Origin: Favolaschia claudopus
Lineage: Eukaryota > Basidiomycota > Agaricomycetes > Agaricales > Mycenaceae
DNA length: 64,000 nucleotides
Assembly: GCA_037176885.1 (NCBI GenBank)
Contig: JAWWNJ010000005.1
Span: 2,046,001 to 2,110,000, forward strand
Direction of reading: 5' to 3'
Part shown: positions 3,819 through 57,348 of the stretch, in pieces
Layout of the letters: the number at the start of each line of letters is the position of its first letter
Numbering within the stretch: position 1 is the stretch's first letter
The notes under the pieces: model-generated
What the model saw: the letters and a program-made list of their open reading frames with translations, nothing else
Told to the model about the DNA's origin: nothing
Databases searched by the model: none
Translations under genes and position numbers: made by a program

Positions 3819-4296
<478 letters not shown>

Positions 4297-8014: not shown

Positions 8015-8413
8015 TTTTCAATCCTTCTCTTTCGCCGTTCAGAGAAAATTTCAGATAAATTCTAGATATATATGCAGTAAACTACTTCTACCGTAACCGC
8101 GATGAATAAAATATTGGGACCAGAGGATTTCAATGAATGGTTTGAAAGTTGAAACTAGCGCTGCTGCCAGAGTTGAAAAAGGGATGTTTTGAATTCTGTC
8201 CAAAAAATAAGAGCGCTCGGGCTGGGAAGAGGCATATGCTCCGACTTTGAAGACCCCCCCCCCCGTAGAATCCTCGACAGGTCAGAATTTAACGAACATC
8301 AAATCTGCCAAGACAAATTTATTGCCCATCGCGTCCCGGACTACTTATGTTACATTTGATTGTACAATAGTCACGATTCTCCTCGAATTCATGACTCAAA
8401 CGCGATCTGCCGT
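8015..8413. other. Intergenic between the duplication and the ABC gene
   Basis: Contains a poly-C run near 8256-8265 and AT-rich sequence. No gene is recognised. It holds the 3' end of the ABC transporter gene on the minus strand. Confidence 0.5.
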
Positions 8414-11002
8414 CTACATCACAGCGTCAGCAAACGCCTGCGCTTGCACATTGTACAGCTCAAAATATTCTCCACCACGCGCCATTAGTTCCTTGTGTGT
8501 CCCAGTCTCAACAGCTTCACCATCCTTCATGCATCTAAATAAACCCGTCAACATAAAGTCAACGCAAACCTGCAGCAAATCAGACTTACATTATCAAATC
8601 CGCATGCTTCGTCAAATGCCCGAAACGATGCGTCACAAATATCATCGTCTTGCCTTGTCGCGATTCCCTCAGGCGCTGGAATAATTGATGTTCGCCTTTA
8701 GGATCCAAGGCTGAGCTTGGTTCATCGGCGACGGCAAAGCGTATATTGCCCGAGAAGAAACGCATGAAGGTGCGAGATCTAGTTCGAGACATGAGTAGCG
8801 TTTCTTCAGGAGAAAAGGCAGGAATATTTACGCGACAAGCCGCTGCCTTTCGCCACCTGAAGAACAATTGTTTAAGCTCAACTCTTCAGACAGAGGTAAT
8901 CGCAGTACTCACCAGAGACCTCCGCCTTCTTCTCCAACCCATCAAAGATCTCCTTCAACTTCTTATGTTTATGCCGATCCAAATGCCCACTCCGAGCCGT
9001 GCTAACAGGATTTAAAATCGTCTGAATCCCATCCACCTGCCGTTGAATCACCCCATTTGCACCGCCAGACTCAGCCGCTTGCACAATCATATCCATGTTA
9101 TCGACCTGTGCCGGATGTCCCAGACCGATATTCTCCGCCAGGGTTAACGGATAAAGTTTATGTTCTTGTGTTAGCATCGCTTGGACTTTGCGCAAGTCCG
9201 AGATGCGGTAGTTCTTGATCGGCTCGCCGTCTACCAAAATCTCGCCCGAGTCGACGTCGTATAGTCGGTTGAGTAATTTGATGATTGTCGACTTTCCGCT
9301 GCCGTTTGCACCGACGATGACGACTAGCTGACCGGCGGGTATTTTGAGAGAGATGTTCTTGATCGCGTTGTCTTTCGATTTCCCTTCGGGGTAGGCGAAC
9401 GAGACATTCCTGACGAGAAAGATTTGAGCCATCGAAAGCAAACTATCATGACGAGGTGAACCTCAATTCGAACGCCATCCCGTTGTCACTGCTTTGAGAA
9501 CTTGGATACGCCTCGTCTCCATCAGCAAGCTTGTTCTCCACTGCACCCATATCGTACAGGTCTTGAATGTGCGAGCACGATTTTGCTGCGTAGCTCCACT
9601 TGACGTAAATCGATTGAACGGTATAATTTAACGTTTTAGCGTGTTGCTGAAGGATAGCAAAGGAGGTGACGCTGAAACTGTTCGGGTATAGAATGGAGGT
9701 CGCCGCCCAATATAGCTACGAAATGCAAATTCGATTTGTTTATTGCCTGCACCGGAGAAATTAGAACATACCGTCGGTAGATCACTGAATACACTGATGA
9801 GTAGTCGTTTGATTGGATTCTGGCGTTGCCCCAATGTGTATTGAGGGTGGGCATCTGAGACGTTGCCTAAATTCTCTCTCGCCTTCCTATATTCTGAAGG
9901 TGTTCAGCATTTGGTTACTGTAATAAGGATTTGTATGTGTCCGTACCTGCAGAAATCCATGTTCCGATGTCCGACGAAACAATCTCCTCGCGGAATGACT
10001 CATCGTTGGCTAGATGAGCCAGAGAGCGAAGTCTCAGGTAATTGGTATTGTCTGAGTATGTTACGAAGGCTGAATATTCGTCGTTTAGATGCTCTTTGTT
10101 CACGGACGGACATGATGGAACGTACGCTGAAGAAAAATGCGATAGCCGGATGTAGCGATCGCAGGGCCCACAAGCGATAAAACTGTGAAGATCAATCCAC
10201 TGTTGGCCTGCTGCAAAATGAACATAATTTGGGCCGAGAATTCGAATATGTCTTGAGCCGTTCCGGTCAGGTACTGGAAGGCACGCCAGAGGTCAGAAGA
10301 AGAAACTTTCTGCTTTGTGTTTTTATCTTGAATCGATTAAATAGAGATCAATCTCATTGTTGAATAGATACGATACCTGCTCCAGTGGGAATGTCCAGCC
10401 TCAGCCTCGCTGCAGAGCTTTCAGGATCGACAAGTTATCCGCAGTCTTGCACCAACCGTTTAGCATATATTCTTCAAAATATAGTTTGACACGAGTTTCG
10501 AGTACAGGTGTGACTTGATCTCTAAAGAGCAAAGTCAACTTTAGAGTAACAAGGGCCACATTGCGACTCACTTGAACCAAGATATGGTGGACGTGAATGC
10601 GATACACATGATGTGAATTACCATGGCTCGCAGAATTGCATTAACGTCTGCATGTCCCTTCATCAAGCCGTCATCGACTGTTTTCAAAAGATTCGTAGAC
10701 GCGTATAACATCAAAACGCTGTCCATTCCAGCCCCAAGTTCCAACGAGCAGGTCAGGATGACGAGAATAGGATCCAAGAAATATATTTCCGTCAAAAAGC
10801 GCCAAACAAGTGCGATGAGCGGTAGCTTTTCGTGAATCTCGTTCCATGGCAGAGACAAATTCGTCGGGAGACTGAGTTTGAAAGATGGCAAACTCGAAGA
10901 TTCCATGGGCAATAGAAGTCGCCAGACCCCCAGCGTCAAAGTTGTGTAGGAATAGTCCTCCAATGCGGCATTATTTGCTGTTTCTTTCTCTGAGCCAGGC
11001 AT
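8414..11002 (-). CDS. ABC transporter (TMD-NBD half-size type)
   Basis: ATP-driven membrane transporter; substrate unknown. Eleven exons on the minus strand, from 11002-10572 to 8534-8414, sum to 2,067 nt and give 688 residues without a stop. The N-terminal half contains hydrophobic stretches (around IALVWRFLTEIYFLDPILVI, VIHIMCIAFTSTI and LIFTVLSLVGPAIA). The C-terminal half is a complete nucleotide-binding domain: Walker A GANGSGKST, Q-loop MLTQE, signature SSGGERQR, Walker B FAVADEPSSALD and switch histidine VTHR. The signature begins SSGGE rather than LSGGQ. The start is the first ATG; an open frame continues upstream only through a TTG. The KDZ transposon is inserted about 90 bp upstream of this start and may have displaced its promoter. 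Confidence 0.88.
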
Positions 11003-11088: not shown

Positions 11089-11096
11089 CACCGCCT
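11089..11096. repeat. Left 8-bp target-site duplication of the KDZ element
   Basis: CACCGCCT immediately precedes the left terminus and recurs exactly at 29711-29718 just after the right terminus. Confidence 0.9.
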
Positions 11097-11211
11097 CACC
11101 TAAGGCACCTACCTTCTCGTGCCGTAAGGGACCTCTAAGGTCCCTTTCTATGGTCGATTAAACCCCCCTCAGAGGTGTCTGCCTCCGCGGTAGATTTAGT
11201 CATGTATTACT
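11097..11211 (+). repeat. Left terminal inverted repeat of the KDZ element
   Basis: About 115 bp, ending CATGTATTACT, strongly similar to the reverse complement of 29596-29710. It contains a hairpin (AAGGGACC, five-base loop, GGTCCCTT) and one CCTCCGC motif. Weaker similarity between the two ends continues inward to about 11280 (shared words ATTTGGATA and CGGCTGC). Confidence 0.93.
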
Positions 11212-11589
11212 GGATTTGGATATATTAATACCGTCTAAATCCGGCTGCGAAGGCGTGACCTCCATGGGTAGCCTTCGCTTAGAGAGTAGCCTCCGCTTAC
11301 TGTTGGGATGGTTTCCTTAGCCGTACTTCATAGCGGAAATTGACACCCAAGAAAAGATATACATTGGCATCACATACAAGACAGTATTTACAATAGGTAG
11401 CGATATCTACAGTGTAGGAAAATGATACAATATTGTTCGCAAATACAGCAGATTGGACACAAATGCGACGACAGAATACAGAGGAGGAGGGCGTAGTACA
11501 GCAGCAAGTCCAAAATGAGCCCAAGAAAGAAACACGCAAGCAAGAAGGGATGTACATGCGCTGCTGAGCCTCCGCCACCGAGCCTCCGC

Positions 11590-14500
11590 CTAATCATCCC
11601 CGCCAACCAGCTCGCGTTGAATCTTGGCGGCCCGCTGCCTCAGGGCCATATATTCCTCCATCAAGGCCTTGAAATCGTTGCCCGGTAACCGCGCCGAAGC
11701 CTGGACCTCATCTATGCGGGTCATCACCTCAGCATATTCATCGAAGGGGTTGCGGGGGGGAGCGACGACGGTGGGAGGCGGAGGAGCGACAGAAGGAGCG
11801 ACAGGAGGAGGGGGAGGCGGAGGAGCGACAGAAGGAGCGACAGGAGGGGGGGGGTTCGAGGTAGCGGTGTGGGGAATGAGGTAGTTGGATGACCGCCCAT
11901 CCCCCGCGACGACGTGACCCATCGGTGTCGCGGTGCCCTCTACCGAATACATGACGCCCTTATAACGTGTATGAGGAGGCGGGGACTGTCGAATATACGC
12001 AGGAATTACCGTCTCTGTGGACCCAGATGCCTCCGCCGATGCATCCGTCAATGCCTTCGCTGGCGCCCTTTTCTTCTTCTTCCCGTCCTTCTTGTTTTGT
12101 GCCGCTGCAGTCGCTGAGCGCGTTCGACGCGGTGGCTCAGGCGGAGCATCTTCAGCCTCAGGCGAAGCATCTTCAGCAGTGGCGGAGGTGCTGGAGGGAT
12201 CACCGTAAACGGCCCGCCAGTGCGACAGGCGTTCCCCTTGTTTCGCGAGCTTTTTGTGGAGGTTGTTCTCGGCCGTCGAAGATGCAGGCGGGGCAGGGGA
12301 ATCGGGGGTGTCGAAGGTGACCTTCCTGTTCTGGGCGGAGGGTCGCGGGAGGGACCTGGCGGAGGAGAAGGTGCCGGCGGAGGCTGCGGCGGAGGGCACG
12401 GCGAGGGCCGTGGGGGCGGTAGCGGAGGGTACAGCGGAGGCCTTGGGGGCGGTGGCGGAGGGTACAGCGGAGGTCTTGGTGGATGATGATCCGGCTCTTC
12501 CTCCACCCTCCTGCTGCACAGGGCGCGGCGGTGGTTTCGCGCCAGCCTTTGTCTTCTTGGCGGGGCGCTCGCCCGTCTCCTTGTCGTCAAGAAAGAAGTC
12601 GGAGGAGGTGGGGGAGGCATGGGGCCCTCGGGTGCGCTTCGAGCCCGTCGCCCCCGTGGTCGTTGCTTTCCTGGTCGCCGCGGGTTTCTTTTTGGGCGAG
12701 TCTACGTACTCGGTGTCCTCGGGGTCGAGGTAGCCTTCGCCGTCGTGGTCGTCGACCTCCAGGCTGCGCCTGCCAAGGGGACGGTCGTCGTCGGTGTCCG
12801 AGTCATCTTCGACGACCTGCACTGCCCTCCCCTTCCCCTTGTCTGCTTTCGCCGGCGGGGCCTTGACAGCGGGACGATCCTCGTCGCTGCCACTTCCAAC
12901 AACCTCAACCTCCACCGCCTTCTCCTTCCCCTTCCTCGTCTTGGGTGGTGGCGCAACCTCGACAACGTCTTCATCCGATGTCTCGTCTTCACCTGCGCGC
13001 TTTTTGGACCCCTTGTTCTTGGGCTTTGGAACTGGTCTGCTCGAAGATGCGTCGGTGTCCTTGCCCTTCTTCACCTTCACCTTCACGAGAGTCGAGGTGG
13101 CGGGGTTCCCCGGGCGGCGAAGGTCGACATGGGCTTTGTAGATGTCGCCGTTGAGTTTTTGACAGCGGACTTGCTGGTTGTTACAGGTGTTCCAGAAGTG
13201 ATCCAGCTGAGCCGGGTCGGTGGGAGGGGCGAGGGTATAGTCGTGAGAGATGATAAAGAAATCATCTGTATACGGAGGTTAGTCAAGACGGAATCGCAGG
13301 GCAAAGAATATAAACACGCACTATCGTCGGCGGCGACGTGGCGTTCAAGACGCATTCCGTACCCTGACTTCTTCCACTCTACCAAACCAATGTTGAACCA
13401 GGTGACCTCTGTGGTCCTCCACGCCGCTATCCCCTTCTTGTTCGAACTCGCCGTGCCCTGCTCACCGGGAAGGCGGACATTGTCTGGCCAACCCACTAGG
13501 CGGAGGCCCTCCTTCTGAAGCTTCTTAAACATTGAGAGCCATGGGAAATCGCCTCTTGAGCCCTTGAGGAAAAAGGAGTCGTTGATGATACCCATGCTCA
13601 TCTCGTTGAACCGCCCGTGTATCCACTTCGTGTCTGCCGGCTCATTGGGGAGAGGGATCACATTCTGGCCAGTTGACTTGACCCAATCCAGGTCGCATGC
13701 GCGTGTACCTCCAACATGCCGACCCCTCATACCCTCCTCCGCCTTGACAACCACCTTCTTCGATTGCGCGGAGGTGGAGGGACCGGCGGAGGCATGACTG
13801 GGACCGGCGGAGGCAGAGGCGGAGGTCTTGGACGGAACAGCGGAGGTTTTGGACGGTCCAGCGGAGGGCTCGGCGGAGGTATCGTCTTCTGCATTGTTCG
13901 AGGGCGGTCGCCAGATATCCAGGGTGGTTCCACCACTGAGGTGGTTTTTCGATTCGTGGCTGCTGCAAAAGAAATCAGCGAGGGACAATAGAAAGAATTG
14001 TCGACATACAAGGAGCAAGTCTTTGCGACTCCCAACAAGTCGGAGTTGCTGTACCCCTCACCAGTCGTTGGGTGCTTGAATGCGTTCGCAAACTAGACGA
14101 ATCAATGAGTTACAATCACGATTAGTAAAAGAAAAGTAGAGACGTACCGCCTCCGCCAATGATGGGGTCGCAATCACCTCCCCAAGTTCACCATCTTCGC
14201 TGACGTGCCTCCCGACTATGAAAAGGATTGCGTCGAACCTTCTATCATCGAGATCCTGAATCTACAGAGTTGGGGGTGAGAAATGTATTGCAAATACAAG
14301 GAAAGAATGCTGCATACCTTGCTCTTGAAAATATCACAAAAATGCTTGAATTGCCGTCCACGACCGGCGAGTGTTTCCAATTTGTCGAGCTCGAGAAGCC
14401 GCTCGTAGGCAAGGAGAACCTCCTTTGCACGATCCTTGTGTACCTCTTTGAACTTGTTGTACATGGTGCGGAGTATCTCGAAGTTGGTTGGGGGCAGGTC

Positions 14501-14818
14501 GGCGAAGGTGCCCGTGAACTTTGCGTCATAGCGTAGATATTCTTCGACCGCAAACCGCTCGTCCCTAGCGAGCGCCTGATACAAATTCCACCAATTGGTG
14601 CCAGGGCGACGATCGGTACTTGCTGAGAACTCGTTGACAACGTACTTGGCGAGGCGATCCATCGGTAGCTTAGTTTTCTTCTGATACAGCTGTGCCAGCT
14701 GCCGCATCTCCACCGTGAACTCCTGGACTGCAGTCGTCTGGTCCCTAGTCATACGCCCGCCAAAATCAAGCCCGCCGATGTTAATGACAGCAGGAGTGAT
14801 TGGCGGCGCATCCTCCAT
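11590..14818 (-). CDS. KDZ-element accessory protein, unknown function (about 1,004 aa)
   Basis: I do not recognise the family. Five exons on the minus strand: 14818-14318, 14261-14148, 14092-14010, 13962-13322 and 13265-11590. Phases agree and the total is 3,015 nt. The N-terminal third looks globular and is mostly helical by eye, with motifs such as RRPGTNWWNLYQALARD and LAGRGRQFKHFCDIFKSK. A middle segment around KHPTTGEGYSNSDLLG and a mixed region up to LRRPGNPATSTLVK follow. The last 500 residues are low-complexity, with Lys-rich, acidic and Pro-rich blocks including SVAPPPPPPPVAP. The first ATG in frame is used; the frame extends upstream to a GTG at 14893, so another 5' exon is possible. 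It lies inside the transposon, so a transposition or DNA-binding role is plausible but unproven. Confidence 0.7.
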
Positions 14819-16029
14819 CTCGACATCCTCTTCTGCATCGGCATCGGCATCTATGGCGGAGAGCGAGCGACCGCGAGGCTCGTCGCTGGCCACGGAGGAG
14901 CAACACTAGAAGTAAACTAAAGACTACATGTCAGGCTGTAGCCTAAATGTAGATTGTTTATTTGCGTGGAGCCAGCCTGGCCCTGGCTAGACATAAAAAT
15001 TGTATGTTTTGTCTATTTACGTGGACCCAGCCACGCCCCAGGCAGGCTTAAAATGGTGCCTTTAGGGCACAGGGGACTGCCGCTGTGTTCCGCACCAGGC
15101 CAGTTGATCCCTTTGATCGTGCCCTTGCGTACAAAAAAAGGGATTTTGCATTACATTATATTATTCCATTGTTTTTCTATGAATTCCATAATTCCCTTAT
15201 TGATGGCTAAAGAATTAATGTGCCGCCAACAAAAGCACCGAAAATAACGATATATTCTCTCAAAAAAAAAACAAAAGAAAAGGTCTTTTTGAACCGATTC
15301 GCGCCCAATATGCCCTTGTCCGCGGCGGAGGGATTCTCCTCGTGGCCTGAATTCTCCTTTATAGCCCGGCAGGCTTACGCACTCGCTCGATACTCATGCA
15401 GGCACCTGCTATCACTGTATGCCGCATTCTGCGCCGTATATGTCTTTCGCCAATATTCCAATATCCGAATGGAGATTCAAACAGACCCACCAATTCCACC
15501 GCCCAGGCGGTCCAAGAGGTTGTAGATTGAGGCAGCTGTAAATGTAGGGATTAGCGAGCGACGTAAGCCACAAGAAAACACTAGAAAAGGAGAGATCTGA
15601 AGAGCGCGAGGGACGAGCAACGCAAGCTTCTTTTGAAAAGAAAGAGAAAGTGACAGAAAAAGGATGGAATGAGAAAACGCACCCAGAACACTTCCCATGT
15701 GACTCACATCGCGTGTCAAGGTGGGGAGAATACAGAGCTCCCCGTCGTAGATAAAGGGGTTGGCGGCCGAGGAGATAGTCGTGTCGAATTCGCCGTTTCT
15801 AGCAGAGTGAAGGTTAGCGATGGCGCGAATAGAAGACGAAGTGAGGAATAAAGAGAGCATAGATAAAGACGGGATGTGAGAGTGAGGAAGAACGGCGGGG
15901 CGGAGGGGGGAAATGGGGAAAGGAGGAGGAGAATGGCCGGAGAACGGGGCGGGAAAGACGAGCCATTAAGGAAGAGGAGGAGCTGGAAAGTGTCTAGAAA
16001 GTGAAAGACGAACACAACAAAACACCCAC
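14819..16029. other. Transposon interior, no gene assigned
   Basis: Contains two copies of a 23-bp word (TGTTTATTTGCGTGGAGCCA and three further bases) at 14955-14977 and 15010-15032, with a third inverted copy at 21010-21032. No recognisable coding domain. Part of the region may be the extreme 3' portion of the captured ArfGAP gene, but I could not align it. Confidence 0.5.
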
Positions 16030-16974
16030 CTAACCCCACCCGCGTCCCTGAAGATCGTCCGCTGCAGCTGCTTCGCGTTCGTACACAAGCGCCTTTGTGT
16101 GTTCCTCGTCTTCGCGGGCTTTGCACTCGGTTTTGGTGAACGAGAGGGGGGTGGCTTTTTGTGCGCCTGAAGAGCAAGAGACGAGTAAGCGAGTGTATAC
16201 GAAGAAGAAGAGAAGAACGACTGACCCAACTTGCCCTTCTTGCTCCCGCCGGAGCTGCTGAGACCATTTGAATCTGCGGCGAGACCAACGCGGCGTTTCG
16301 GTGCAGCAGGGGTGGTCGTGGCAGCTGGTGTTGTCGTGGTCGAAAGCGCTCCCATTCCTCGCCAACCCGCTCGCCGCATGCCCCAACACAACAGGCGTCT
16401 CCACGCGACTCGTCTCGCCGTGCCAGGTTACTCCAGCTTCCGAAGAAGAATCGTCTTCTCCCCTGCCTTCCCCCCCTCGCGTCATCGCCGCCGCCGCTTC
16501 AATAACAAGACTGTCCGGCCACCTCGCCGCATCCGCGCTAACCTTCTTCCCACCTCCTCCCTACACATCTACGCCACCCTTCTTCCCTCATACCGCGCCT
16601 TCCCCTGCACGCTCCCCGCCCCGTTCTTATGCAGAAAGAAACGCCGAGAACGCCGCGTTCCCGCCGACCTTCATGGCGCGCAGCTGCTGGGTGACCAGGA
16701 GTCGAGGTTGGTGGGTCGGACGAAGGTGATGTGGGTGCCCATGTTGCGATGGAGGGTGGAGCAGCCGAGGCTGAGGTAGACAGCGTTAGTGACCGAGGGG
16801 GTGGGGTTGAGCGCGCCACGGTCGATGCAGGTCTGTGATTTGAAAGATACAAAAAAAAGTCAGGCTAGTGAATTGTAATTTATAAGAGACTAGACGACGT
16901 ACCTTGTTGTCGTTCGGGACGCGGAGGACGGCAAAGATGCGGTCGATATCTGGCTTGAATGCTTGACCGCTCAT
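16030..16974 (-). pseudogene. Captured, decayed Glo3-type ArfGAP (ArfGAP2/3) gene copy inside the transposon
   Basis: Arf GTPase-activating proteins of this type act in COPI vesicle traffic. The minus strand starts MSGQAFKPDIDRIFAVLRVP, followed by a GT-AG intron after NDNK. It continues with an ArfGAP-like zinc-finger region ending RNMGTHITFVRPTNLDSW, a one-base frameshift, and LRAMKVGGNAA. Further down are KKGKLG, another well-formed intron, then AQKATPLSF and ECKAREDEEHTKALVYERE, which matches the Glo3-type region after the zinc finger. Two of four zinc-binding Cys are lost (CIDR for CxxC, SLGC for CxxC), and stops and frameshifts break the frame. Retained introns show it was copied from genomic DNA and not from mRNA. 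Confidence 0.75.
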
Positions 16975-19900
16975 TCTGTCTGATCTTTAATATGGAAGTA
17001 GAGAGTTGGAGACAGTGAGGGAGGCACGAAAGGGCGCGGTTATGTGAGTGACGATTGAGGAGGGGAGAAGCGTCCGAAGGTGCCGGAAGGAAGCAATGCG
17101 GAGGGTGGAGGCGAGGGAAGGAGCTACGTCGAACCAATCACCTCATAAGCCGAGGATTGCGACATTGGTGATGGGGGAAGGAAGACGAGGGCGGGTAGAA
17201 GATTGCTTGTGCGCATCCAGACCGACGAGGCGATAGATAGTGAAAGTCTGGACATATGACAAGAGATGCGGGGTGCGGGGGGAAAGCTAGTATAAACGAC
17301 GGTCGGATCGAGGATTACTTGAGGGTCACGGAGACGTATAAGCAACGTATAAGTCACCTTCTTGCTCTGCTTCAATCTTCCCTATTGACCTCCCTTCCTC
17401 ACCAATACTTAATGTCGCCCTAATCGTCGGGATAGCGCGAGTTGCCGTCAACGCAGATGTGTGGATGGGTCGGTAGTTGACCTCGACAATACCGTAGTGG
17501 TGAAGGGAAAGAGTTGTGCTGGCGAGGCGTGACGACGTGACTCACGTCGTCGGCATCGATTCCGAGTGCCTCGGAGAGTATGTGCGCTGCTGATACTAGT
17601 ACAGTCGTCGTCGATAAGTCCGGCCGGGGAGGAGTGGTGAAAGCGTCGAAGACGAAGTGCTGGCAGTGTGACGCCGTGACTCACACGTGCGGAATCGTCG
17701 CCGATTGGTTGCGGGGGCTCGGTCCGGGCACCGGTACTCAACGCTTTCCTCCCATTTAAGAAGGTGCTCGCTCTACATGCTTCGAAGAAGATTGCTGACG
17801 CATAACTGTAGTGATTTTACATCCTGAGATTACCTCTATACCTACATTTACTGCGAGTATGCTTACATTTCAATTATTTCAAGGCATTGAACACATCCTC
17901 TCTGCAGCGTCTCGATATTGGTAACGACTTTTCGCCAGCGATCGTTATGAGTCCACAATACGGTTCCCACATTTCATCATTAGTTTATACCAGCTCAATT
18001 GCTGATTTTTTGTGCTTCCGATCCGCCTGTATCATTGTGATTATTCGGGTTCCTACAAGTTCAAGCTGTTTTTGCGCAATTCTCGACTCCAGCTCGTCAA
18101 CGAAGATGGTACAGCTATTATATACTATTTTGGCGAATAAAATGCTCCTTTTTAAAGCTATTCTAGCGCTTTGAATTTGGGATGCAAAACATCCGACAAG
18201 TGAAACTAGTTCGCAGTGTGAGATTAGCTACTGAGCTCGGTCAAGTTGAACCGTTTCAAGAATTGAAAGATAGGCTCAATATCTACTCAAAATTCTTGTA
18301 GAATAGTCAATATACAGTCTGTATGATGTCTCTGGACACTTTAGCTTGCTCTTTCGCTCACCCTGTGGCCTCAAAACCGACGAACAAAGTGGCCATCAAA
18401 TATTTTTGGTACAGTTCGTCATCGTACCGAAATTTCAGAACGAACAACGCGTTTGGTATTCCAAATTTAAGGGATAGCGTGTCTTATGTATCTCAACACC
18501 ATTTACGCGCGTCAGACGCGTCTTATACGCGTTCCACGTTGTGGAACACGTCGACCTCGTTAAGAGAAACGGCCATCGGACCGTCGTCCCAGCCAATGGG
18601 ATGGCGTTCCGATAAAGCCGAATGTTCGGTCGAAAGCAAGACACAAGTGCAATTTTGTTATTTTCCCTCAATGCTCACTGAGATCATGTCTTTGAGTGCA
18701 TTAGGAAAAGATCCATTGTTTCATTGCTGTACAAACAGTATAAGTAACTAGGAAAGTACCATAGAAATGATTCCAAGAAACTGTTGATGAAACAAGTACG
18801 AAGATAAAGAAACATCGGCAGAAAATGAAGTCATTCACTCCACTGCACCTGCACCACTGACGCCCACCGCTATCTTCTCCCAAGATGCAGCAGACTTGTC
18901 CCGCAGTATTGATCAACGGCTAAGATCAACGACACTAAACCGGCAACCCCGCTTGTCTCGCCGTCAACATCGCACTCATGGGCTATCGAGCTGGGCGAGC
19001 ATCGCGGAATAATCTGTGTCTTCGGAGGCATCGGGGTCGGGCGGTGCGGCGGGCGGTGCGGAGTGCATTGCGGGTGAGCGGGGGCGGATGTGGTGACGAG
19101 GAGAAGCAAAATGTGACGTTGGACAAGTGAACGGAACTGGCACGGAGTATTTGAAGCGGTGGTAGGAGGGAGACCAGGTTAACGGCGGGGGTACGGGATG
19201 ATGAGCGGGTTGATGAGGTACATGGGGGAAAGGAGCACCACGCACCTTTGCCCTCCTCATACATCAGTGTTGTGCTGAAGGAGAAAGTCGACGAGAAATT
19301 GACGAAGAAGTAGGCTAAACGATGAACGCGTGAGATAATGAAGGCGAGAGAAGCAAGTGTGGGTACGACACCCCATGTGAACGTCTATATTCGCGAGTGT
19401 CGGCGTTCAGCAAAGGCGGTGAGACGAGACGATGTCGAGGGAAGTGGGGACGGAGGGGTGGGAGCGGCACAAAGTCGCGGAGACGGCGTCTTTGACTAGG
19501 GATGATAGCCGGCGGGGCGGGGTGGGAGATAGGAGCAAGTGGAGGTGAATGATAACGAGTTAGTGAGGTCAACTAGGAGACCGAGACACTGCGCACCTTC
19601 ACCCTCCTCTTGTGTATTCGACGTTGGACCGGATGCGAGTGAATGGTGCAGGAGGGAGCTGGAAGGAGAAGGTGTGAGATTATAAGACGAGACAAGTCGC
19701 AAGTACGGAAACAACGCACCTGGGTGAAGATCGCCCGAATTGAGGCATTGGTGAACGCCGCAAGCACGAAGTGGCACGGGGGGTGGAGTCGGAGTGACAG
19801 AAGGCGTGCTATGGAAGGGTCAATTGAGTGAAATTGAGACAGGAGAGACAAAACGAGGAAAGTACGTACTGTTTGGTTTCCAACGGTTTCAGACAGAACC

Positions 19901-21079
19901 TGATGTGGCGCCGACGCTTTTCACGCGATGGCAATAATCTAAGATTACAGGGATGTCAGAAGGCCGAGAGAATTCTGAGGAATATTTATTTTATGACAGA
20001 ACTCGAAAATCTGAAGCAGGTACGTGCCGCTTGGGTGGGGGTAAGGAATTTGAGCTATCCCATCAAAGATCGAGGTGTTGCAGCTGGGTTTGGAGTCCCG
20101 AGACGAATCGAAGGGCACAGGTAGCTAGCATGCATCAAATAGAGCCTTTAGGGTCATTAGATCGAGGGAAAGGTGGAGAAATGAGTTGAAAACACGTACT
20201 AGATGATTCTGCAGGTGAGCTTGTGAAGCCATCAAATACCTTGAAAATTCGGGCGCACCAATGCTCGAAGCGCAAACGGCATGCTCTAGTATGGTAGGGA
20301 GTGTAATTACGAACAAATGGCACGCTTGGTTCGTGCAAAAAGACGGAGATCTGACTGAGATAGCGACACTTCAAGATTGGCTTGTCTTGTAGCCCCGCAG
20401 GATAGTTGAGGTTTGAAGGGTGAAACTGTCCTAATGCCAGCCTGTTGCTGTTTTACTGAACAGGTTTTGAAGTTAGAGAGCAAGAGGAAACCAAGGAGTA
20501 AACCGATGCATGTCGACATGAGACATGAAGTGAGGTCAATGAGGAGTGCAGAGCAGAGGATGATGGCAAGCAACGGCAAACTTCCCAGTTGGAGAACAAA
20601 TTTGTTCAAGTCCGACTTGAGTCCGACATAGGTCCGACAAAACAAAAGAGGCTAACAACGGAAAACAGAGACCCAGAGAGGCAAATGGTTCCAATCTAAG
20701 GAGAACATCTAGCTACTCTACTGTTTGAAACTTGTTTTGAGTCCAATAGAAGAAAAATAACAGGGAGGGCAATATTTTTGTGGCGAAACAAAATTTGATC
20801 CAATTCATCAGTAGATCACTAAACTAGACAATTTTGATGGCAAGCAAATTATATAAATTATATAAATCCCATAAGAATAAGATATCTGAGCTGCTGCTAA
20901 GCTGCCCAAATGAGATGACGGAAGCCGAGGTGCCGGCCCTCATCACCTCCATCAGAAGGCAATCACAAAGGGACCGGCAGGGGGCAAAAAAAAGCGCTTG
21001 ACAGGCTGTGGCTGGCTCCACGCAAAAAAACAACCGGGCAACCTGGCTATGTTCAGGGCATTTATTCTTTATATTACAT
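16975..21079. other. Transposon interior, 4.1 kb without a recognised gene
   Basis: Many short overlapping ORFs lack recognisable motifs. Stretches near 17000-17760 and 18870-19260 have coding-like composition and could be further host fragments carried with the ArfGAP copy, but no family could be named. CGGAGG motifs are sparser here than in the flanking ORFs. Confidence 0.4.
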
Positions 21080-22627
21080 CTAGGGCTCGGAGGAGGCACG
21101 AGAGGAATCGGCGACGGAGGTGGTGTGAGGGTAATCACCCCCGTCGTCATGAACAGCAGGCGGTGACGCCGCATTGCCGTCGTTGAAGGGGGGGGCGGAG
21201 GGAGTGTTCGCGCGGGCGTGGATGACGTTGTCGTCAGTACTGAACAGGTCGCTGGCACTTGTTGGGGGTGCAGTAGCAAGCGGAGGGGCTGGCGGCGGGG
21301 GTGCAGTCGCAGGCGCGGAGGCAGGCGGCGGAGGTGCGGTCGAAGGCGCGGAGGCAGGCGGCGGAGCGTTCGAAACATCTGGCGGAGGCTTCGATGCCTT
21401 CGCCGGGGCTTTTCGTGCAACCCTTCGCGGCTTTGGCGGAGCCTTGGGGGCCTTCGGCGGAGGTGGTGGCTGGAACAATACTGCAGGGTCGATTTTGAAG
21501 TTTTCCATCATCTCGAGCCCGAGATGGGCATTCGCGCTGCCAGACGCCTTCGACGGCGTCAGGTGAATGAAGGGATTGGGTCCCGGAGGCAGGGGGTGCT
21601 CCTCCCACAATGTACTGTGGGGTGGAGGGGGTAGAGCAGCCCGTTCCTCTTCATCCGCCTGAGCCTGTCGTCTGGCGCGATGCTCCGCTTTCGATAAGAG
21701 CACCCTTGTTTTCGGGGGCGCAGTGAACGTCGGAGGTTGAGCGTCTGGAGGCACGACGGAGGAGGCGCGATGCCCTCCCTTGGCGGCAAGGCGTCCTTGA
21801 GCAATCCTCTCGACACCGGGCTCAATCGATGTCGAGCGTGCTAGTTTGGATGGGGATGGGGGGAAATCGCGAGCAAAATTTGGAGGAACGAAAGCCGAAG
21901 GTGGAGGTGGAGGTGCAGCAGAGGTCGAGGCCACAGGAAGGGCAGGTGGAAGCTCGGGAGCACCGCGCCTTGCGTGCATGGATCTTGCCGTAGCGTTTGC
22001 GCGGCCGGTGGGCCTGATGGTTGGGCGCAGGCGTGTCGCTGGCTGCTGGTCGGGGGGAAGGGGCTCAGCCTGGAGGTGTTTATATCCACCTCCAGTCTGA
22101 AGCTCCTCAGCGTGTGGCGGAGGCAGTCGGAGGGGCACGGCGGAGGCAAAGCCCTGGGAGGGTAGGGGTTGTTTGGCGCGGACTGGCGAGGAATCCTGGA
22201 GCTCGTCGCTCTCGTCATCTGTATTTGGGCGGGGACCGGCCCCGTCGTCGTCTTCCTCGCTGTCTTCCTCCTCATATTCCCCTTCCTCCTCATCGGACTC
22301 ATCGTCTGCTGCCTCGGGATCTGCGTTTAACTCATCAGCATCCTCCTCGGGTAGTGCGTGCCCGTGAGTTTGAGGATCGGGATAGACGAAACCAGGGCCT
22401 TGAACCGGGGACCCAAGACCAGGAACTGTGCGAAGCACATCCAAGCTGTAGCCAGAGAAATCACCCTCAACCATGTAGTCGAGGCTGGATGCGGGAGGGG
22501 AGCCAGGAGGGGAGCCTACAGAAGTCAGCTCAGAGAGCTCGGCGGAGGTATTTTCCATGTCAACTTTTGGGAATCTGGCGGAGGCTACGAAAAAGAAACT
22601 TGTATGAGAATGTACAACGAGTTTCAT
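21080..22627 (-). CDS. KDZ-element accessory ORF, acidic/proline-rich disordered protein
   Basis: Single open frame of 515 codons on the minus strand; family not recognised. The protein is almost entirely low-complexity. There is a short N-terminal Ser-rich part, a strongly acidic block near residue 110 (DESDEEEGEYEEEDSEEDDD), a basic/Pro middle, and a C-terminal Ala-Pro repeat region (PPPASAPATAPPPPAP). An in-frame ATG at 22558 (MENTSAEL) is an alternative start; the longer frame begins at 22627. Its DNA is dense in the GCGGAGG word, which contributes to the composition bias. The upstream DNA is repetitive and may hide 5' exons. Reality as a gene rests on frame length, stop-free codon use and position in the element. 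Confidence 0.55.
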   Translation of the reverse strand: MKLVVHSHTSFFFVASARFPKVDMENTSAELSELTSVGSPPGSPPASSLDYMVEGDFSGYSLDVLRTVPGLGSPVQGPGFVYPDPQTHGHALPEEDADELNADPEAADDESDEEEGEYEEEDSEEDDDGAGPRPNTDDESDELQDSSPVRAKQPLPSQGFASAVPLRLPPPHAEELQTGGGYKHLQAEPLPPDQQPATRLRPTIRPTGRANATARSMHARRGAPELPPALPVASTSAAPPPPPSAFVPPNFARDFPPSPSKLARSTSIEPGVERIAQGRLAAKGGHRASSVVPPDAQPPTFTAPPKTRVLLSKAEHRARRQAQADEEERAALPPPPHSTLWEEHPLPPGPNPFIHLTPSKASGSANAHLGLEMMENFKIDPAVLFQPPPPPKAPKAPPKPRRVARKAPAKASKPPPDVSNAPPPASAPSTAPPPPASAPATAPPPPAPPLATAPPTSASDLFSTDDNVIHARANTPSAPPFNDGNAASPPAVHDDGGDYPHTTSVADSSRASSEP

Positions 22628-22689
22628 TAAACAGCCCTAGCGTACCTTTGGGTTTTAGGACACGTTTGAACAAGTATGGGACAACTTTG

Positions 22690-23060
22690 GATCACTTTTC
22701 GACGCGTTCAAAGACGCTTTTGGACGCGTTCGAAGACGCTTTTGGACGCGTTATTAGACGCTTTTGGACGTGTTATTGAACGCTTTTGGAGACACTTTGG
22801 GGGCGGAATCGGGACTCGAATGTGAAGCAACTGCAGTTGTCTTTCAAACATGAACAACAAGGAATATCAAGGGGAAATAACTCACTAGATATCAACGACA
22901 AAGACGCGTTATCGGACGGTTTTTTGACGCGTTACGGGACGCTTTTGGGGGCGGGATCGGAATCAGAACTCGATTGTGTAGCAACTGCAATCGTCTTTAA
23001 AAGAACAAGAGACATCGAGAGGAAAGGACTCACAAAATATCGACGACGAAGACTGGTGGC
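22690..23060. repeat. Degenerate tandem repeats upstream of the acidic ORF
   Basis: Short units of the type GACGCTTTTGGACGCGTT recur at 22700-22790 and 22900-22950. A longer unit of about 110 bp (GGGGGCGGAATCGGGACTCG onward) at about 22799-22905 is repeated imperfectly at about 22947-23050. Both copies carry what looks like a splice-donor-like AACTCAC/GACTCAC, so duplicated exon/intron sequence is possible. Confidence 0.7.
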
Positions 23061-23563
23061 TGGAGACAGAGAAACTGATTGAGGCACGATTTTACACTAG
23101 AGGATGTTAGTCCGAATGATATAACAAGAAACTATGTGCCATACAGGTTGTTTTGAGACGATTTGGGCGATTGGAGAGGAGGGAGACGGAGTGGCGGAGG
23201 GAGAAAAAAAGGAAGCCCGTCACATATTGTGACTGTCACAAGCCTACCTCTGTCTACCTTCCGCCGCACCTCCGCCACCCCGACCTTCGTCGACGTAAAC
23301 CGATCGCTGCCGCCACCGCGGATTACCTCAAAGTGGCAGCCAATAGGAAGCAGTATAAAACTCGATCTACAGGGTTTTTTTTCTAGGGACAGACTTGTTG
23401 GACTCGTTCGTTGCCAATTACTCGGGATTTCCTCCTCTGCTTTGCCCCAAGAGCTGGCTACTTTTTCTGTGATTTTACGACTTGTTTGAAACTACGTGCA
23501 TGAGTTGGGGCAAAAGCCAGGTGAGTTCTCATTAGTGGATTGACTTCTCCCACCATCTTGTTC

Positions 23564-24265
23564 ATGGGACGTCGAGCAAAATATCTCTCCCTTGAAGAGA
23601 AAGCGTTGGCGCAGCGGGAACACGATCTCAACTACAGTCGCAGTGTTCAGTGCGTCTTTTCTACCTTTCTAATGCCTCTAATGTGGAATATTCATGACTG
23701 TAGCGGTAAACCAATGCGTTCCGCATACCGAGAGTACGCCCACCGCCGCAAGCAGAGGAAGATTCCTCAAGCAACACCTCTCCTACCCTCACCCACACCC
23801 AGGCAGTTGAGACTATATCTCAGCCCACTTCCCACCCACTCACCACTCTTTGCCGAGGCATTGAGATCCCCTGACGCCCTCGATGAAAGCGACCTCGCCC
23901 GCTGGAAGAAAGAGCCACCATTTGAGAAGGACGACGATCCAACCGACCCGCATTCCTCCCAGTACCTGAAATTTACCAGGTCCCTCATCGAGGTTTTGCA
24001 TGGAGTTCGACTACGCGAGGAAAATCAGCGAGATGCTCAACTACGGAAGGAGTTGCAAGGTGGTGGACGGAAACACGTGCTATTGCAGCTGGAGGAGGAG
24101 GTTTTGGAGAAGTGTGGGGTCTGGCGTCGTGTGGAGGAATTAGAAAAGGGAGGCTTTTACCATCCAGATCACCAGTCTCGAGAATTTGCAATGCTAGAGC
24201 ATTATCTACAGTGGCTAGGACGATCTATATGCTACCTGTACTATCTAAAGTTTGCTGTTTTGTAA
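23564..24265 (+). CDS. KDZ-element accessory protein with basic N-terminus (MGRRAKY type)
   Basis: Two exons, 23564-23649 and 23704-24265, joined by a 54-nt intron, give about 215 residues. The N-terminus MGRRAKYLSLEEKALAQREH followed by AYREYAHRRKQRKI is a short basic, helical segment. I recall similar openings in proteins found beside transposons in agaricomycetes, and a DNA-binding role is an inference from that. The rest is hydrophilic and helical with WKKEPPFEKDDDPTDPHSSQ and a C-terminal EEEVLEKCGVWRRVEELEKG. The start is the first ATG; upstream the frame opens only with TTG. It is transcribed opposite to the other large genes of the element and converges on the transposase gene 300 bp away. 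Confidence 0.6.
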   Translation: MGRRAKYLSLEEKALAQREHDLNYSRSVQCVFSTFLMPLMWNIHDCSGKPMRSAYREYAHRRKQRKIPQATPLLPSPTPRQLRLYLSPLPTHSPLFAEALRSPDALDESDLARWKKEPPFEKDDDPTDPHSSQYLKFTRSLIEVLHGVRLREENQRDAQLRKELQGGGRKHVLLQLEEEVLEKCGVWRRVEELEKGGFYHPDHQSREFAMLEHYLQWLGRSICYLYYLKFAVL

Positions 24266-24564
24266 TGAAAGCTGCTTGATATTTCTTGACAAAATCAGCG
24301 GAGGTCCCCAGCAGAGGCTCTAAACGGTGGCGAAGGTGTAGACGGAGGCTCACGAAGGCGGCGGAGGTCTGCGGCGGAGGTTCACAGAGGTGGCGAAGGT
24401 ATATGCAAAGGCTCCGGCGGAGGGTCGCAGGTTGGCGGCGGAGGTTCACACTAGTAGCAAAGGTGCACACGGAGGCTCCGGCGGAGGTCGCCGAAGGTAC
24501 TTCAAAAACAATCGCAATGTGTAACGGAGATTCATTGTCTACAAAAGGTTTTACTGAAACATAG
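24266..24564. repeat. Non-coding cluster of the GCGGAGG motif
   Basis: Within about 220 bp (24295-24500) the words GCGGAGG, ACGGAGG and GGCGAAGG occur roughly a dozen times with irregular spacing, between the 3' ends of two converging genes. There is no coding potential on either strand here, so the motif is not explained by amino-acid composition. Confidence 0.75.
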
Positions 24565-27500
24565 CTATGTAAATGGGAGTGTAAGAATATGCTTTCGGTA
24601 GACATCCCGTACGAATGGCATATCGGACTCGGTCAGTGCAGTCTCTCGATATCCACACATGAATGCCGCCATAACACTCAGTACCCACAAACCGCAATCA
24701 TAGTCATTGGTCTGCCGAGGAACACCCTGAAACAGCTATATCAATGAATCTATGGCGCCTGGAGATGGACCTACCACTTTGAATAACGGCCGTGCCTCCC
24801 ATTTCTCTTCGGGATCTTCGGTCGTCAGATACAACGGGTGGCGATTGCGATTTGCGAGGGCAACCAGGCGAGTCATTAGGATCATTATATCCTAAAGACA
24901 GATGAGATTAATCTCGATTCATTGAACACTATTAATAATGTTAAACTTACACGAAGATCTTGTCGCCAACCTCCGGCGGATGCAAGGCTGTCAAAGAAAA
25001 GTATCTTCCGCTCGGGCACCAGCACTATGGCAACTACCCAGTGTATATCCGCTGGTCTATGGATAGGGATCAACCAGATTGGTTTGTCCCAGTACTCAGT
25101 GGGCGATACATGCCGCCAGAGATCAGGATCGGAACCCTTATAGTGTACACGGCCCAAGTCGTAGGTGCTGAATAAAGCACAGCGATTGGCGAACGACTCA
25201 GTTGGAGAATACGGAGCGCGGAGGATGTTGTGAAAGGAGGTGGCAATCCCGTTGAGGCCGAATCCATTGAGGCGGCCATTGGGAATACTGAAGGGCCGCA
25301 GATCGTCGGGGGTGATCTCTAGCGGGCGTCTACCCTCCCGAACAACGAAATGGGAAAGAGTTTCGGCTGTCGTTCCCAAGGTAGCGTTGCGTTTAGCGAG
25401 GTCACGGACAAAGGTGCTGTTGGTGGCACTTGGGGACTGGAAATCGGTCAACAGAAGTCCTACTCGCGAAGGCCGAATACTTACCTCGTATTCCCATTTT
25501 ATATCAAGAACTTCTGAGGAGAATTCCACTGCAGACGTCTCCACCTCCTCTTCATCATCGGAGCCATCAAATACTTCCTCAACCAAGATAACCTGCTCCT
25601 CATCCGAGAGTTCCCCAGAATCAAGCTGAGGTTCCAGTGAGTCCATAGCTTCGCCAAACTCAACAAATTCATCCTCAGTTATGGACGCCCGAAGTGTAGA
25701 GCTTGAGGAGCTTGCTGTAGACGCCGCCGCCGAGGCCTTGGACAGCATGACCACCAGGCTTTCGTTTCGAACGCGGGGTGACGCGGCCGTGTTAAATGAG
25801 GTTGCGGGCAGTGGCATTATAGGGACGGGCGGAGGCACCGCAGAGACCGGCGGAGGCACCGCAGAGACCGGCGGAGGCACCGCAGAGACCGGCGGAGGCA
25901 CCGCAGAGACCAGCGGAGGCATCGCAGAGACCGGCGAAGGCGTGACGGAAGGTGTGACATGGTCGGCGAAGGCTACGGCGGAGGGTACAAGAGCGTTTGC
26001 TGATCTCGTTGTCATTCGACCTTGAACGTCCCGATGGCGGAAGCAGGGGGTCCAAGACCTCTCCATGTCCGCGAGGTCCTGCTGTCGCTGTAAGATCAGA
26101 AAAACCAGCGCGGAGTCTGAATTCACGTTAGAAAGATCGTCAACAACATGGGCTGAAACATACCACCCAACGCTTCTTTCGCCTCCGCCGCAATTTTCTT
26201 TTCCTCACACAGCCAGTGCCGCAAGTTGTCACGCTCGAGATTAAGGCGAACCACCTCCTCAGCACATCGATCTATAAGATGAAGGTTGCGAATTCCATCG
26301 CGGACATCTTCGTCGTTGAGCCACCGCGGGATTGGTCCCTCGGATGGTGTGATCCATACGTCCTCATGCAGAGTTGGATCGTTTCGAAGGCCATTGAGCT
26401 GGGTAGAAAGAGGGGAGGGAGATGGGATGGAGCAATTTGGAGGCCGAATTCTCTCGAGCGTCGCACAACATGCATTGAATTTGTTGATAGCTCTCAATAA
26501 CGCCGGTTGGCGTTTGCTGATGGCTTTTCGCGTCTTCTGATGAAGCTTCGTTCCAAGTGGCTCTCTCCTCCCTGATACCGCGCGGTCAAGCGTCTCCCAT
26601 TCCATAAAAGACCCCGTCGCACGTTTCCGAATGTTGATCTTCAAGTCCCGCATCACAAGCAAGGTTCGAGTGAACTCCAGAGGGAGACCGCGGAGCTCTG
26701 GGTAGGTGTCCTGGATATTGAGTGATGTATAGAGTGCCTCCGCCTCCGTGCTAAGCTTCTCGTGTGTCAGCTCAAGCCCACGAAGGATGGCCAGAGACGA
26801 CGCAGGCGCCTTTGCATTCTTGAGAGTTGCTTTAGCCTCTTCGATGGCGTTCTCAACGGCGTCGATCTGCGTCTGGAGCATAAGAACTTTGTCGAGTTCA
26901 CGGCGGAGGCGGCGCGGAGCATCTGCAAAAAAAAAAATCAGAATCAGAGAAAGTAGATAGTAGATAGTAAACGTACGAGCACGGAGAGAAGTCTGAGCTT
27001 CCTTCTGTGCAGCCCATTCAGCGCGAAGAACCCTCTCCGTCACCCGACAATCGTGAAGGATCTTCGCAGCAGCACGATGTTTAGGCATAACATTATTCTG
27101 CTGCTGGCGAGTAATCCAAGTGCCGAGGGAGGCACGGCCTTCTTCCCCCACAAACGCGGCATATTCATCAATCATCCAGATGCGGCGCGAGCTCTGTAAG
27201 ACAGATGATCAGCAGGGCAGAAAAAGAGGAGGCTGAAACATACCCATTGTGTCCGTGTTAACGGTATGAGTTTGCGTGTCCGTGACCAAAACCGTTCGAC
27301 ACTTTCGTGATCCGCAAGCCCCATCCCCGTGCAGAACTTGGGGTTGTAGACTAGCTGGCATGCCCATTGATGCCCATACGCGTGCATCCCGTTGATGACA
27401 AAACCTACGCGCTGGCGGAGGCCTTCGGAGAGAATTGGATACTTGGCGGAGGGTGAGGCGCAGGACGGAACGGAGGCAGAATCGACATACCAAATTGAAA

Positions 27501-29507
27501 CTGTGGTCCGTGACACAGGCAACATCGTAGGCCTGTTTGACCGTTGCTTTCGGAGGGAGCAAACTGAAAAGCTCCTCCAGCATAGCAACAATATAACGCT
27601 GCTGCTCTCCCGGGGTGTCTATATTGCAGAGGAAGATGGGTTGCCCGTGGCGGCAAGTCATGACAAAGACCCCACTGGCATCGTAGCGATCGGGGTTGGC
27701 CTTACGCTTCTTCTCGTTTGCCGCGTCCCAGGACTCCTCGCAAGAATCAATGACTTCCTGTGCGATTGAACGTTTTGGATTAGCGTTTGGCTTCTTCCTT
27801 GCTTTGTCTACCCTTCGGCCAGCAGCATCAACCTTGGCCTTGGAAAGAAAATGCTTCGGTGTATGGGAAATTGGGCCATCGCCGGCGTTCTTCCAATGTC
27901 GATAGCTAAAGCATCCATCGCCACCTATTTGCACGTCGCCGCCCCTACAGGGAACATGTTAGCCACAATACAATCAAAGTAATAGAAGACAAAATTACTC
28001 GTCTAAAGATCTCCCCCACTCAGTGAGACCGAAGCACGCTGGGCATCGTTCGCGTAAGATTCGATCTGCCAGTCCGGGGAAAAGCTGGGGCGTGGAACGT
28101 GTGGCGGAGGCACCGGCGGTGGGTTCGGGGGGTAGAGCGGAGGCATTGGCGGGGGTTTCAGAAGGTGCGTCGGAGGCATTGGCCGGGGTTTCAGAAGGTG
28201 CGGCGGAGGCATTGGCGTTGGGTTCGGGGGGTAGAGCGGAGGCATTGGCCGGGGTTTCAGAAGGTGCGGCGGAGGCGTTGGGTTCGGACACGAGTTCGGG
28301 GGGTGGAGCGGAGGCGTTGGCGGGGGTATTGGCAGGGGTTTCGAAAGGTGCGGCGGAGTCATTGGCGTTGGGTTCGGGGGGTGGAGCGGAGGCATTGGCG
28401 GGGGGTTCAGCGGAGGCATTGGCGGGGGGTTCGGAAAGTGTGGCGGCGGCGAGCCGCACCTCTGCCCGTAGAAGTTCCGCTTCCACCTTCCTCTCCACCA
28501 GAGCCCGAAGATTGGATGACCATTGGACGGCCTGGATGAGCGATCGTCGGAAGGGATCCCGCGCAACGTCAACGTCGCCATGTAGCGGCTGGTTTGTGGA
28601 GTTAATTGAGAGATTTCGCATTGGAAAGGACACTCACCCTGTCCACGACCACCCTAAATCCCCGCCTTTCGTACACTGTATGAAGCGCAGCCGCAAGTGC
28701 GGTAACAGCATCACAAGAGCGCTCGAAAAGAGCCCGGTAGGAGTCAAGTAAATCGAAGGCAACCCCGGTCTGGGGCTTGGTTGGAGAAGCAGGGAAGACT
28801 CCGTGCTCAATAAGAAGGATGGCAGCCGACTTGCAGCTGCAGGTCCTAATTGTGACGTGCTGGATGTCTAGGGATAGGTGAGTGAATGAGCTGGCAGCCA
28901 GAAACCACCACATACGCGTTGAATACAAACACCGAACCCTGGAAACGATTTCCTTGCACGACGACATCATCGTACAATGATATACGAGCTCCGAAGGGAT
29001 GAAATCGCGTGGGCGGCCGTGTGTATCGCGGTAATACTGAATCCAGGGAATCTCCAGCAGAGGTAAGAGCATGTTCCAGGCAACATTCAATCGCTGATGA
29101 GCGGCATCGCCGGCAGGCTGTCGGATTAAGGGAGGTGGAGGTGGTGGGGGTGGGCGAGGCACGGAGGAGGGAGTGGGAGCAGGTTCCTCCTCAATCCACT
29201 GATCCATAGTCACGTCCATATTCGCGTCCGAGCTGTCGACGATGTCCATCGAGTGGCTTGAAGAAGGTAGAGCCATAGGAGGAAGAGGTGGAGGCGCGTT
29301 GGGAGGGGCTTCCCCCCGCAAAAGCGCACCGACGAGCTGAAAAGCGGAGGCAGCGGCAGAGGCCTGGTGAGTGTGTCCCAGGCCTTTTACTACCCCCCTC
29401 CGACGACGAACGCGACCATTCTTGATAGGACTCGTGTAGTGTAGACCAGGACCAGCCGTGGTCGCCTTCTGGCTCGCGCGCGTCGAGTGTTTTGGCTGTT
29501 TTGGCAT
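24565..29507 (-). CDS. KDZ transposase fused to a C-terminal Ulp1-type (C48) cysteine protease
   Basis: Eleven exons on the minus strand: 29507-28916, 28867-28638, 28588-27999, 27944-27491, 27441-27244, 27193-26977, 26922-26164, 26116-25485, 25436-24951, 24891-24775 and 24726-24565. They total 4,437 nt, so 1,478 residues with no stop. Residues about 190-270 carry the cysteine cluster typical of KDZ proteins (VRCLYS, TCSCKS, EHGVFPASP). About 300-460 is an Ala/Pro/Asn repeat. About 460-780 is the RNase-H-like transposase core: CPACF, GGDGCFSYRH, VFVMTCRHGQ, AYDVACVTDH, GMHAYGHQWACQLVYNP, HESVERFWSR; likely catalytic residues are the Asp of GGDG, the Asp of YDVAC and the Glu of VERFW. A VPPPVSA repeat follows. 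The protease has His in DIHWVVAIV, Asp in FFDSLA, and Gln and Cys in RQTNDYDCGLWV. Fusion depends on the 47-nt intron at 26163-26117. Confidence 0.88.
25826..25935. repeat. 21-bp tandem repeat in the transposase-protease linker
   Basis: About five copies of CGGCGGAGGCACCGCAGAGA plus one base. On the coding strand they give the heptapeptide VSAVPPP in series, between the KDZ and Ulp1 domains. Each copy contains the element-wide GCGGAGG word. Confidence 0.9.
28100..28450. repeat. Minisatellite in the N-terminal region of the transposase
   Basis: Irregular tandem repeat built from GCGGAGGCATTGGC and GGGGTTTCAGAAGGTGC blocks. It encodes ETPANAS and PPEPNANAS type repeats between the cysteine cluster and the catalytic core. 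Reading frame is kept throughout exon 3. Confidence 0.85.
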
Positions 29508-29595
29508 GGCAGAGGAGGCTAAGCGAAGGTCACGCGTTTGCAGCCGAATTTGGAAGTCACAGTGGTACAGTAGTATCCAAATTGGGCGAAGATGG

Positions 29596-29710
29596 AGTAA
29601 TACATGACTAAATCTACCGCGGAGGCAGACCCCTCTGAGGGGGGTTTAATCGACCATAGAAAGGGACCTCCGAGGTCCCTTACGGCACCAAAAGGTGGGT
29701 GCCTGAGGTG
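29596..29710 (-). repeat. Right terminal inverted repeat of the KDZ element
   Basis: Reverse complement matches 11097-11211 with only scattered differences. It includes the hairpin AAGGGACC, five-base loop, GGTCCCTT. It lies about 90 bp upstream of the transposase start codon and so probably contains its promoter. Confidence 0.93.
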
Positions 29711-29718
29711 CACCGCCT
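29711..29718. repeat. Right 8-bp target-site duplication of the KDZ element
   Basis: CACCGCCT, identical to 11089-11096. Confidence 0.9.
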
Positions 29719-57346: not shown

Positions 57347-57348
57347 AA

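Follow-up and report, generated by a model that had tools for sequence, protein, structure and literature searches.

A KDZ-superfamily DNA transposon in one haplotype of Favolaschia claudopus, split by a nested element and dense in the motif CCTCCGC

Results

Structure of the element

The 64,000-nucleotide stretch analysed here (the window), from the genome of the wood-rotting mushroom Favolaschia claudopus, holds an 18.6-kb block bounded by inverted repeats, whose features are collected in Table 1. An earlier note, made from the same sequence, had reported 115-bp terminal inverted repeats (TIRs) at both ends with identical sequence flanking them. Both observations were reproduced: the arms are identical at 108 of their 115 positions, and the 8-bp target site duplication (TSD) CACCGCCT stands at either end. 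Its assignment to the KDZ transposons is likewise supported by the transposase core (PF18758, 152.8 bits against a Pfam cut-off of 26.6, in protein P0001), the TIRs and the 8-bp TSD. We conclude with high confidence that the locus is a cut-and-paste DNA transposon of the KDZ superfamily, about 12.4 kb long by itself, that inserted into one F. claudopus haplotype with an 8-bp duplication and carries three genes, the large one split by a nested 6,188-bp element. Subtracting the nested stretch and one copy of its TSD leaves 12,419 bp for the KDZ element. Cut-and-paste movement is what the KDZ core would predict, with the TIRs as the presumed cut sites of the transposase.

Table 1. Features of the KDZ element and of the element nested in it (window coordinates)
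Feature	Position	Strand	Details
Left TSD, 8 bp, CACCGCCT	11089..11096		One copy in empty sites
Left TIR, 115 bp	11097..11211	+	CCTCCGC close to inner end
Large gene (gene 2), 3′ part	11590..14899	-	Five exons; 1,031 residues open, downstream of the nested element; relatives P0121-P0123
Left TSD of nested element, 7 bp, GGAGGAG	14894..14900
Nested second element, 6,188 bp, unclassified	14901..21088	+	Ends CAACACTAG...GGGCTC; boundaries by local comparison (right one approximate, about 21088)
Right TSD of nested element, 7 bp, GGAGGAG	21089..21095
Large gene (gene 2), 5′ part	21089..22558	-	ATG start; 490 residues open, upstream of the nested element; P0121 continuous with 3′ part
Companion gene	23564..24265	+	Two exons; 215 aa; all-helical model; convergent with transposase
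Transposase gene	24565..29507	-	11 exons; 1,478 aa and stop; CxC1/CxC2, KDZ core, Ulp1 (C48)
Right TIR, 115 bp	29596..29710	-	With CCTCCGC
Right TSD, 8 bp, CACCGCCT	29711..29718

The nested stretch was recognized in a genome search with the whole element, where query positions ~3,803-9,995 matched different loci from the remainder. It belongs to a repeat family (further copies L023, L025 and L026) whose members are ~5.6-6.3 kb long, have exact 7-bp TSDs and resemble one another weakly at their ends; those read start with CAACACTRG and finish with GGGCTC. All four copies with both ends read by eye (the window and contigs C105, C48 and C28) have an exact 7-bp TSD; the left end alone was located on C237 and the right end alone on C17. 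A Pfam search with 10 of the 21 open reading frames (ORFs) of at least 95 aa in the nested element gave no match above cut-off and one below it.

Elsewhere in the window, two inverted repeats are perhaps miniature elements (45982-46458, 157-nt arms 96% complementary; 44157-44652, 101-nt arms 90% complementary). Two 300-nt direct repeats, 100% identical, lie 1.76 kb apart (4487-4786 and 6251-6550), and 56373-57862 holds further direct repeats (160 nt and 103 nt, 100% identical) in a region of strong AT skew.

Genes of the element

The transposase model has no mismatch to the annotated protein P0001 (R3P38DRAFT_2499670, Favolaschia claudopus), from which 120 of the model residues are absent. An alternative model of 10 exons and 1,494 residues was dropped because the alignment with relatives supports an additional 48-nt intron, and the eleven-exon, 1,478-codon frame of the earlier note thus stands. 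Besides the KDZ core, P0001 contains CxC1 (32.5 bits, cut-off 26.9), CxC2 (27.8 bits, cut-off 27) and an Ulp1 protease domain (C48; 64.8 bits, above the Pfam cut-off), with the CxC cysteine cluster preceding the core. Several Asp/Glu positions of the core, conserved in at least 95% of the 120 relatives listed, are candidate catalytic sites only. Both KDZ and Ulp1 (C48) domains are present in 13 F. claudopus proteins among those 120, a number that alleles may inflate. No TET/JBP domain was found in the 20 window ORFs and five proteins scanned.

The 215-aa companion protein has 51 database matches at E <= 0.001, comprising 31 from Mycena, 14 from F. claudopus and 6 without an organism name, and for 28 of them the contig has the same size as a contig bearing one of the 120 listed transposases. 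By coordinate comparison, a companion lies no more than 6 kb from 19 of 20 other places with a KDZ core (the exception is on C327), these places coming from a scoring of 39 among 263 candidates, so that more may exist. The protein is predicted to be all-helical (mean pLDDT 85.6), and a structure search with it against solved structures returned no match at E <= 0.001. A profile search of solved structures returned none either. The large gene encodes a protein of ~1,500 aa that recurs in the KDZ family: translated searches of ten copies detected its 3′ part in every one and, with the window as query, its 5′ part in 8. Its database matches at E <= 0.001 are three (P0121-P0123), all from F. claudopus and none with a Pfam domain; a structure prediction for a gene 2 exon reached a mean pLDDT of 56.4 and was excluded from use.

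Between the window and other copies, the transposase has a dN/dS of 0.07-0.21 (5 loci) and the companion one of 0.12-0.18 (5 loci); the two parts of gene 2 have 0.20-0.31 (4 loci) and 0.28-0.42 (6 loci). These ratios are rough, because 19 of 20 listed comparisons have a dS above 1 and synonymous sites are near saturation. These values suggest that the three-gene layout has apparently been kept by purifying selection. What the earlier note had called cargo ORFs are better described as conserved genes of the element, one of them broken, given a companion near 19 of 20 KDZ-core places and the large protein in all ten copies.

Insertion site and mobility of the family

Once joined, the host flanks align across the insertion site with two further contigs, C96 and C159. 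Identity to the flanks on the window's contig (C5) is 96.3% and 95.6%, and both contigs match it again upstream at 96-97%; on that account we read them as haplotypes. The F. claudopus assembly spans 265 Mb (264.6 Mb were searched here) with 86.8% duplicated BUSCO genes (PMC10905254). When aligned, both of the two other haplotype contigs found show a single CACCGCCT and no footprint. The insertion in the window looks young, in agreement with the earlier suggestion of a recent event. Since the best KDZ matches of the window copy are merely ~75% identical, its own movement is dated solely by the empty haplotypes.

A search of the genome with a TIR pattern, a check that the earlier note had proposed, found 74 termini against 0 for the reversed pattern. 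By eye, 48 of these form 24 facing pairs, of which 11 are 3.0-3.7 kb long and the two widest, at 23 and 29 kb, may each comprise more than one element. With 24 facing pairs and 13 F. claudopus proteins combining KDZ and Ulp1 (C48) domains among the 120 listed, the idea that a delimited copy is unusual since many are fragments finds no support. An exact 8-bp TSD flanks all nine elements with both ends read (the window, C6, C110, C66, C10 and four short elements). Five relatives with two ends measure 12,217 bp (C10), 12,175 bp (C6), 11,893 bp (C1), 11,948 bp (C60) and 11,968 bp (C77); longer ones occupy 18.9 kb on C66 and 28.6 kb on C110. The two short elements for which ORFs were listed have none above 211 residues.

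The copies on C10 and C66 differ by 14 mismatches in a 10,930-bp block (99.86% identity), have unrelated flanks and different TSDs, and contain specific stretches of ~0.45 kb and ~7 kb respectively. The KDZ family has thus moved recently in F. claudopus, and the earlier note was right about an active family in the sense of a recently mobile one. Another pair of copies, on C113 and C131, shows 96.9% identity over 9.9 kb, with different sequence past the single end that was read. The copy at C66:267241-286112 (L014, L015) carries a further insertion of ~7 kb near its left end that is absent from its C10 twin. Three TIR-bounded stretches, C96:1024421-1030486 (6,066 bp), C148:548030-554095 (6,066 bp) and C200:305626-311668 (6,043 bp), are perhaps a medium-sized subfamily or alleles. 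Five KDZ ends (L003-L007; TIR identity 91-92%) are accompanied by ~96-99.7% identical sequence on either side of the TIR. We rejected them as five independent insertions, as their flanks are common beyond the TIR; judging from these flanks, they seem to be one KDZ end copied within another, larger repeat.

Distribution of the CCTCCGC motif

The sequence GGCGGAGG occurs 54 times in the window where 2.7 occurrences are expected: 48 in the 18.6-kb element (2 of them in the nested stretch) and 6 in the 45.4 kb outside. Counting GCGGAGG/CCTCCGC, the density is 36-54 sites per 10 kb in all ten long KDZ copies (six of them partial stretches, and C110 taken in two pieces) and 80-101 per 10 kb in all four short elements. 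It is 0-6.5 per 10 kb in four nested-family copies, the middle of C110 and eight background stretches; on C4, a single site falls in a 1.2-kb flank, equal to 8.3 per 10 kb. The motif is the top-ranked 7-mer in 8 of 8 KDZ copies and 0 of 3 controls ranked. It is present in 17 of 21 TIRs, three of the others having CCTTCGC and one TCTCCGC. Within the window element, densities per 10 kb are 54 in non-coding sequence, 45 in the transposase, 70 in the large gene and 0 in the companion. The companion gene (23564-24265) stands without CCTCCGC amid genes that have many.

Genome-wide, three CCTCCGCC within a short span occur at 241 places against 43 for the reversed pattern. From the 100 places listed (contigs C1-C22, many overlapping), 84 fall inside KDZ-family elements, a count made by coordinates that takes the C2 element as ~12 kb from its right end and includes a C17 region with TIR-like ends. 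Four extra regions have 68-83 sites per 10 kb and are not independent evidence because they were chosen for holding clusters. The host background has a mild excess of its own (17 sites against 6.2 expected in 45 kb).

In a simple comparison, motif sites are conserved more often than 7-mers matched roughly for composition, for example 28 of 48 against 152 of 744 between the window and the C110 copy, a result that alignment and tandem repeats favour. Under a strict test restricted to isolated sites and matched for flank identity, conservation is above expectation in 12 of 12 comparisons with long copies (P<0.05 in 3), and reaches P<0.05 in 0 of 12 comparisons with short copies, each offering 0-2 testable sites. 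Our reading of the motif does not depend on its conservation.

Discussion

The earlier note delimited the KDZ element correctly, yet the element is broken by a nested one and of ordinary size without it. It had proposed an intact, autonomous 18.6-kb element with cargo, a view in keeping with the wholeness of both ends and of the transposase frame but one that can hardly be credited: 14901-21088 is a repeat that occurs alone elsewhere with its own 7-bp TSDs, and the gene split here runs continuously through the nested insertion point in P0121, the protein of the C110 copy. The extra length behind the size that it had called unusual is the nested insertion, and five relatives without it are 11.9-12.2 kb long. 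We rejected the whole 18.6 kb as a single element because of the repeat inside. Because the nested element split the large gene, the window copy is probably impaired, unless the large protein comes in trans from other copies. As for the empty sites, the C5 element might once have been in all haplotypes and have left C96 and C159 by precise excision, which is possible in principle; we consider this very improbable, as the site in either contig reads exactly as it would have before insertion, with no footprint, and a single insertion is simpler.

The closest experimentally mobile relatives that we found are KDZ1-KDZ3 of Cryptococcus neoformans, which move in culture, are 9.2-11 kb long with TIRs of 139-241 bp, and make TSDs of 8 bp (KDZ1) or 4-8 bp (KDZ2/KDZ3) (PMC12810828). 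They share KDZ and CxC1 domains, TIRs and, in KDZ1, the 8-bp TSD with the window element, whereas the portion of the report available to us mentions neither an Ulp1 domain nor a companion gene or a dispersed motif; the window element, for its part, is ~12 kb long with two further genes and is known here from sequence alone. By description, the Zisupton lineage is also similar in its KDZ transposase, TIRs and 8-bp TSDs (PMC12730594), and TIRs with an 8-bp TSD characterize nine of nine F. claudopus elements with both ends read. Kyakuja families, in contrast, are described with 7-bp TSDs and no TIRs, and the TET/JBP genes of some Zisupton, Dileera and Kyakuja elements have no counterpart seen in the window element; the main text of that paper does not include F. 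claudopus or Mycena (PMC12730594). Among the titles and abstract openings listed in searches of the open literature, none describes the element, its companion genes or the motif.

For the motif, the closest analogy comes from Arabidopsis, where VANC21 binds to a short sequence that has accumulated in its own transposon family, VANDAL21, and brings about loss of methylation (PMC5735166). There, as in F. claudopus, a short motif is dense within one family, often in tandem, a density so high being confined to that family; here it is dense in the family and sparse outside, with the mild host-background excess given above. The portion of the VANC21 report available to us differs in showing binding and anti-silencing, and in placing the motif mainly in non-coding sequence, while the F. 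claudopus motif also lies in exons (PMC5735166).

There are possible explanations for the abundance of CCTCCGC. One hypothesis, which we hold to be a serious possibility although somewhat short of even, is that it is a mere by-product of slippage in GC-rich coding repeats, without a role in recognition. Many sites indeed stand in tandem arrays with spacings of 21, 33 and 63 bp; the 67 sites of the window fall into 25 context clusters and the 36 of C113 into 5, and one reading frame holds 31 of the 52 sites wholly within window exons. The host excess also fits slippage, with the shifted word CTCCGCC ranking sixth there, and so does the strict test of isolated sites, with P<0.05 in just 3 of 12 long-copy and 0 of 12 short-copy comparisons. 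Slippage in coding repeats accounts less well for a non-coding density as high as that of the transposase (54 and 45 per 10 kb) and for sites in all three frames, or for the still higher density, 80-101 per 10 kb, of the four short elements, two of which, where ORFs were listed, lack any above 211 residues. The motif in 17 of 21 TIRs, and the 0-6.5 sites per 10 kb of the nested family, flanks and other repeats, also argue against it. The consensus of CreA/Mig1-type repressors is SYGGRG, which GCGGAG fits, and the motif could be the site of such a host factor, used by the element for expression. This appears improbable: GCGGAG is found 77 times in the window element against 10.6 expected, while among the other seven SYGGRG forms GTGGAG is about twofold enriched (17/7.9), two exceed expectation 1.4-1.5-fold and four do not exceed it, and short elements without long ORFs would hardly need ~30 host sites. 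With these other forms barely enriched, a CreA-type site was rejected as the main account of the motif.

We tentatively regard CCTCCGC as a putative recognition site for a protein of the element, perhaps with an anti-silencing function as in Arabidopsis VANDAL/VANC. Present in most TIRs read and scattered through the copies examined, it would be the binding site of one of the three proteins that the element encodes. It is conceivable, if doubtful, that KDZ transposons in F. claudopus, and perhaps in further Mycenaceae, possess self-recognition of this kind, with the 215-aa companion, the large protein or the cysteine cluster of the transposase as the candidate binder. By the same analogy, and with equal reserve, a motif of the TIRs may have multiplied to ~30-70 sites per element, in autonomous and short elements alike, and may protect them from silencing or assemble a transposition complex, as a fungal counterpart of VANC that arose independently. 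We know of no kinship between VANC and the proteins of the F. claudopus KDZ element.

The element itself is a member of a known superfamily, and the points worth following are its conserved companion genes and the motif. What would matter is a three-gene layout together with a dense motif common to autonomous and short elements. If a protein of the element binds the motif, it would offer a fungal example, easily put to the test, of a transposon marking its own DNA, and such self-marking, if true, could help explain the persistence of these elements in the large genomes of Mycenaceae.
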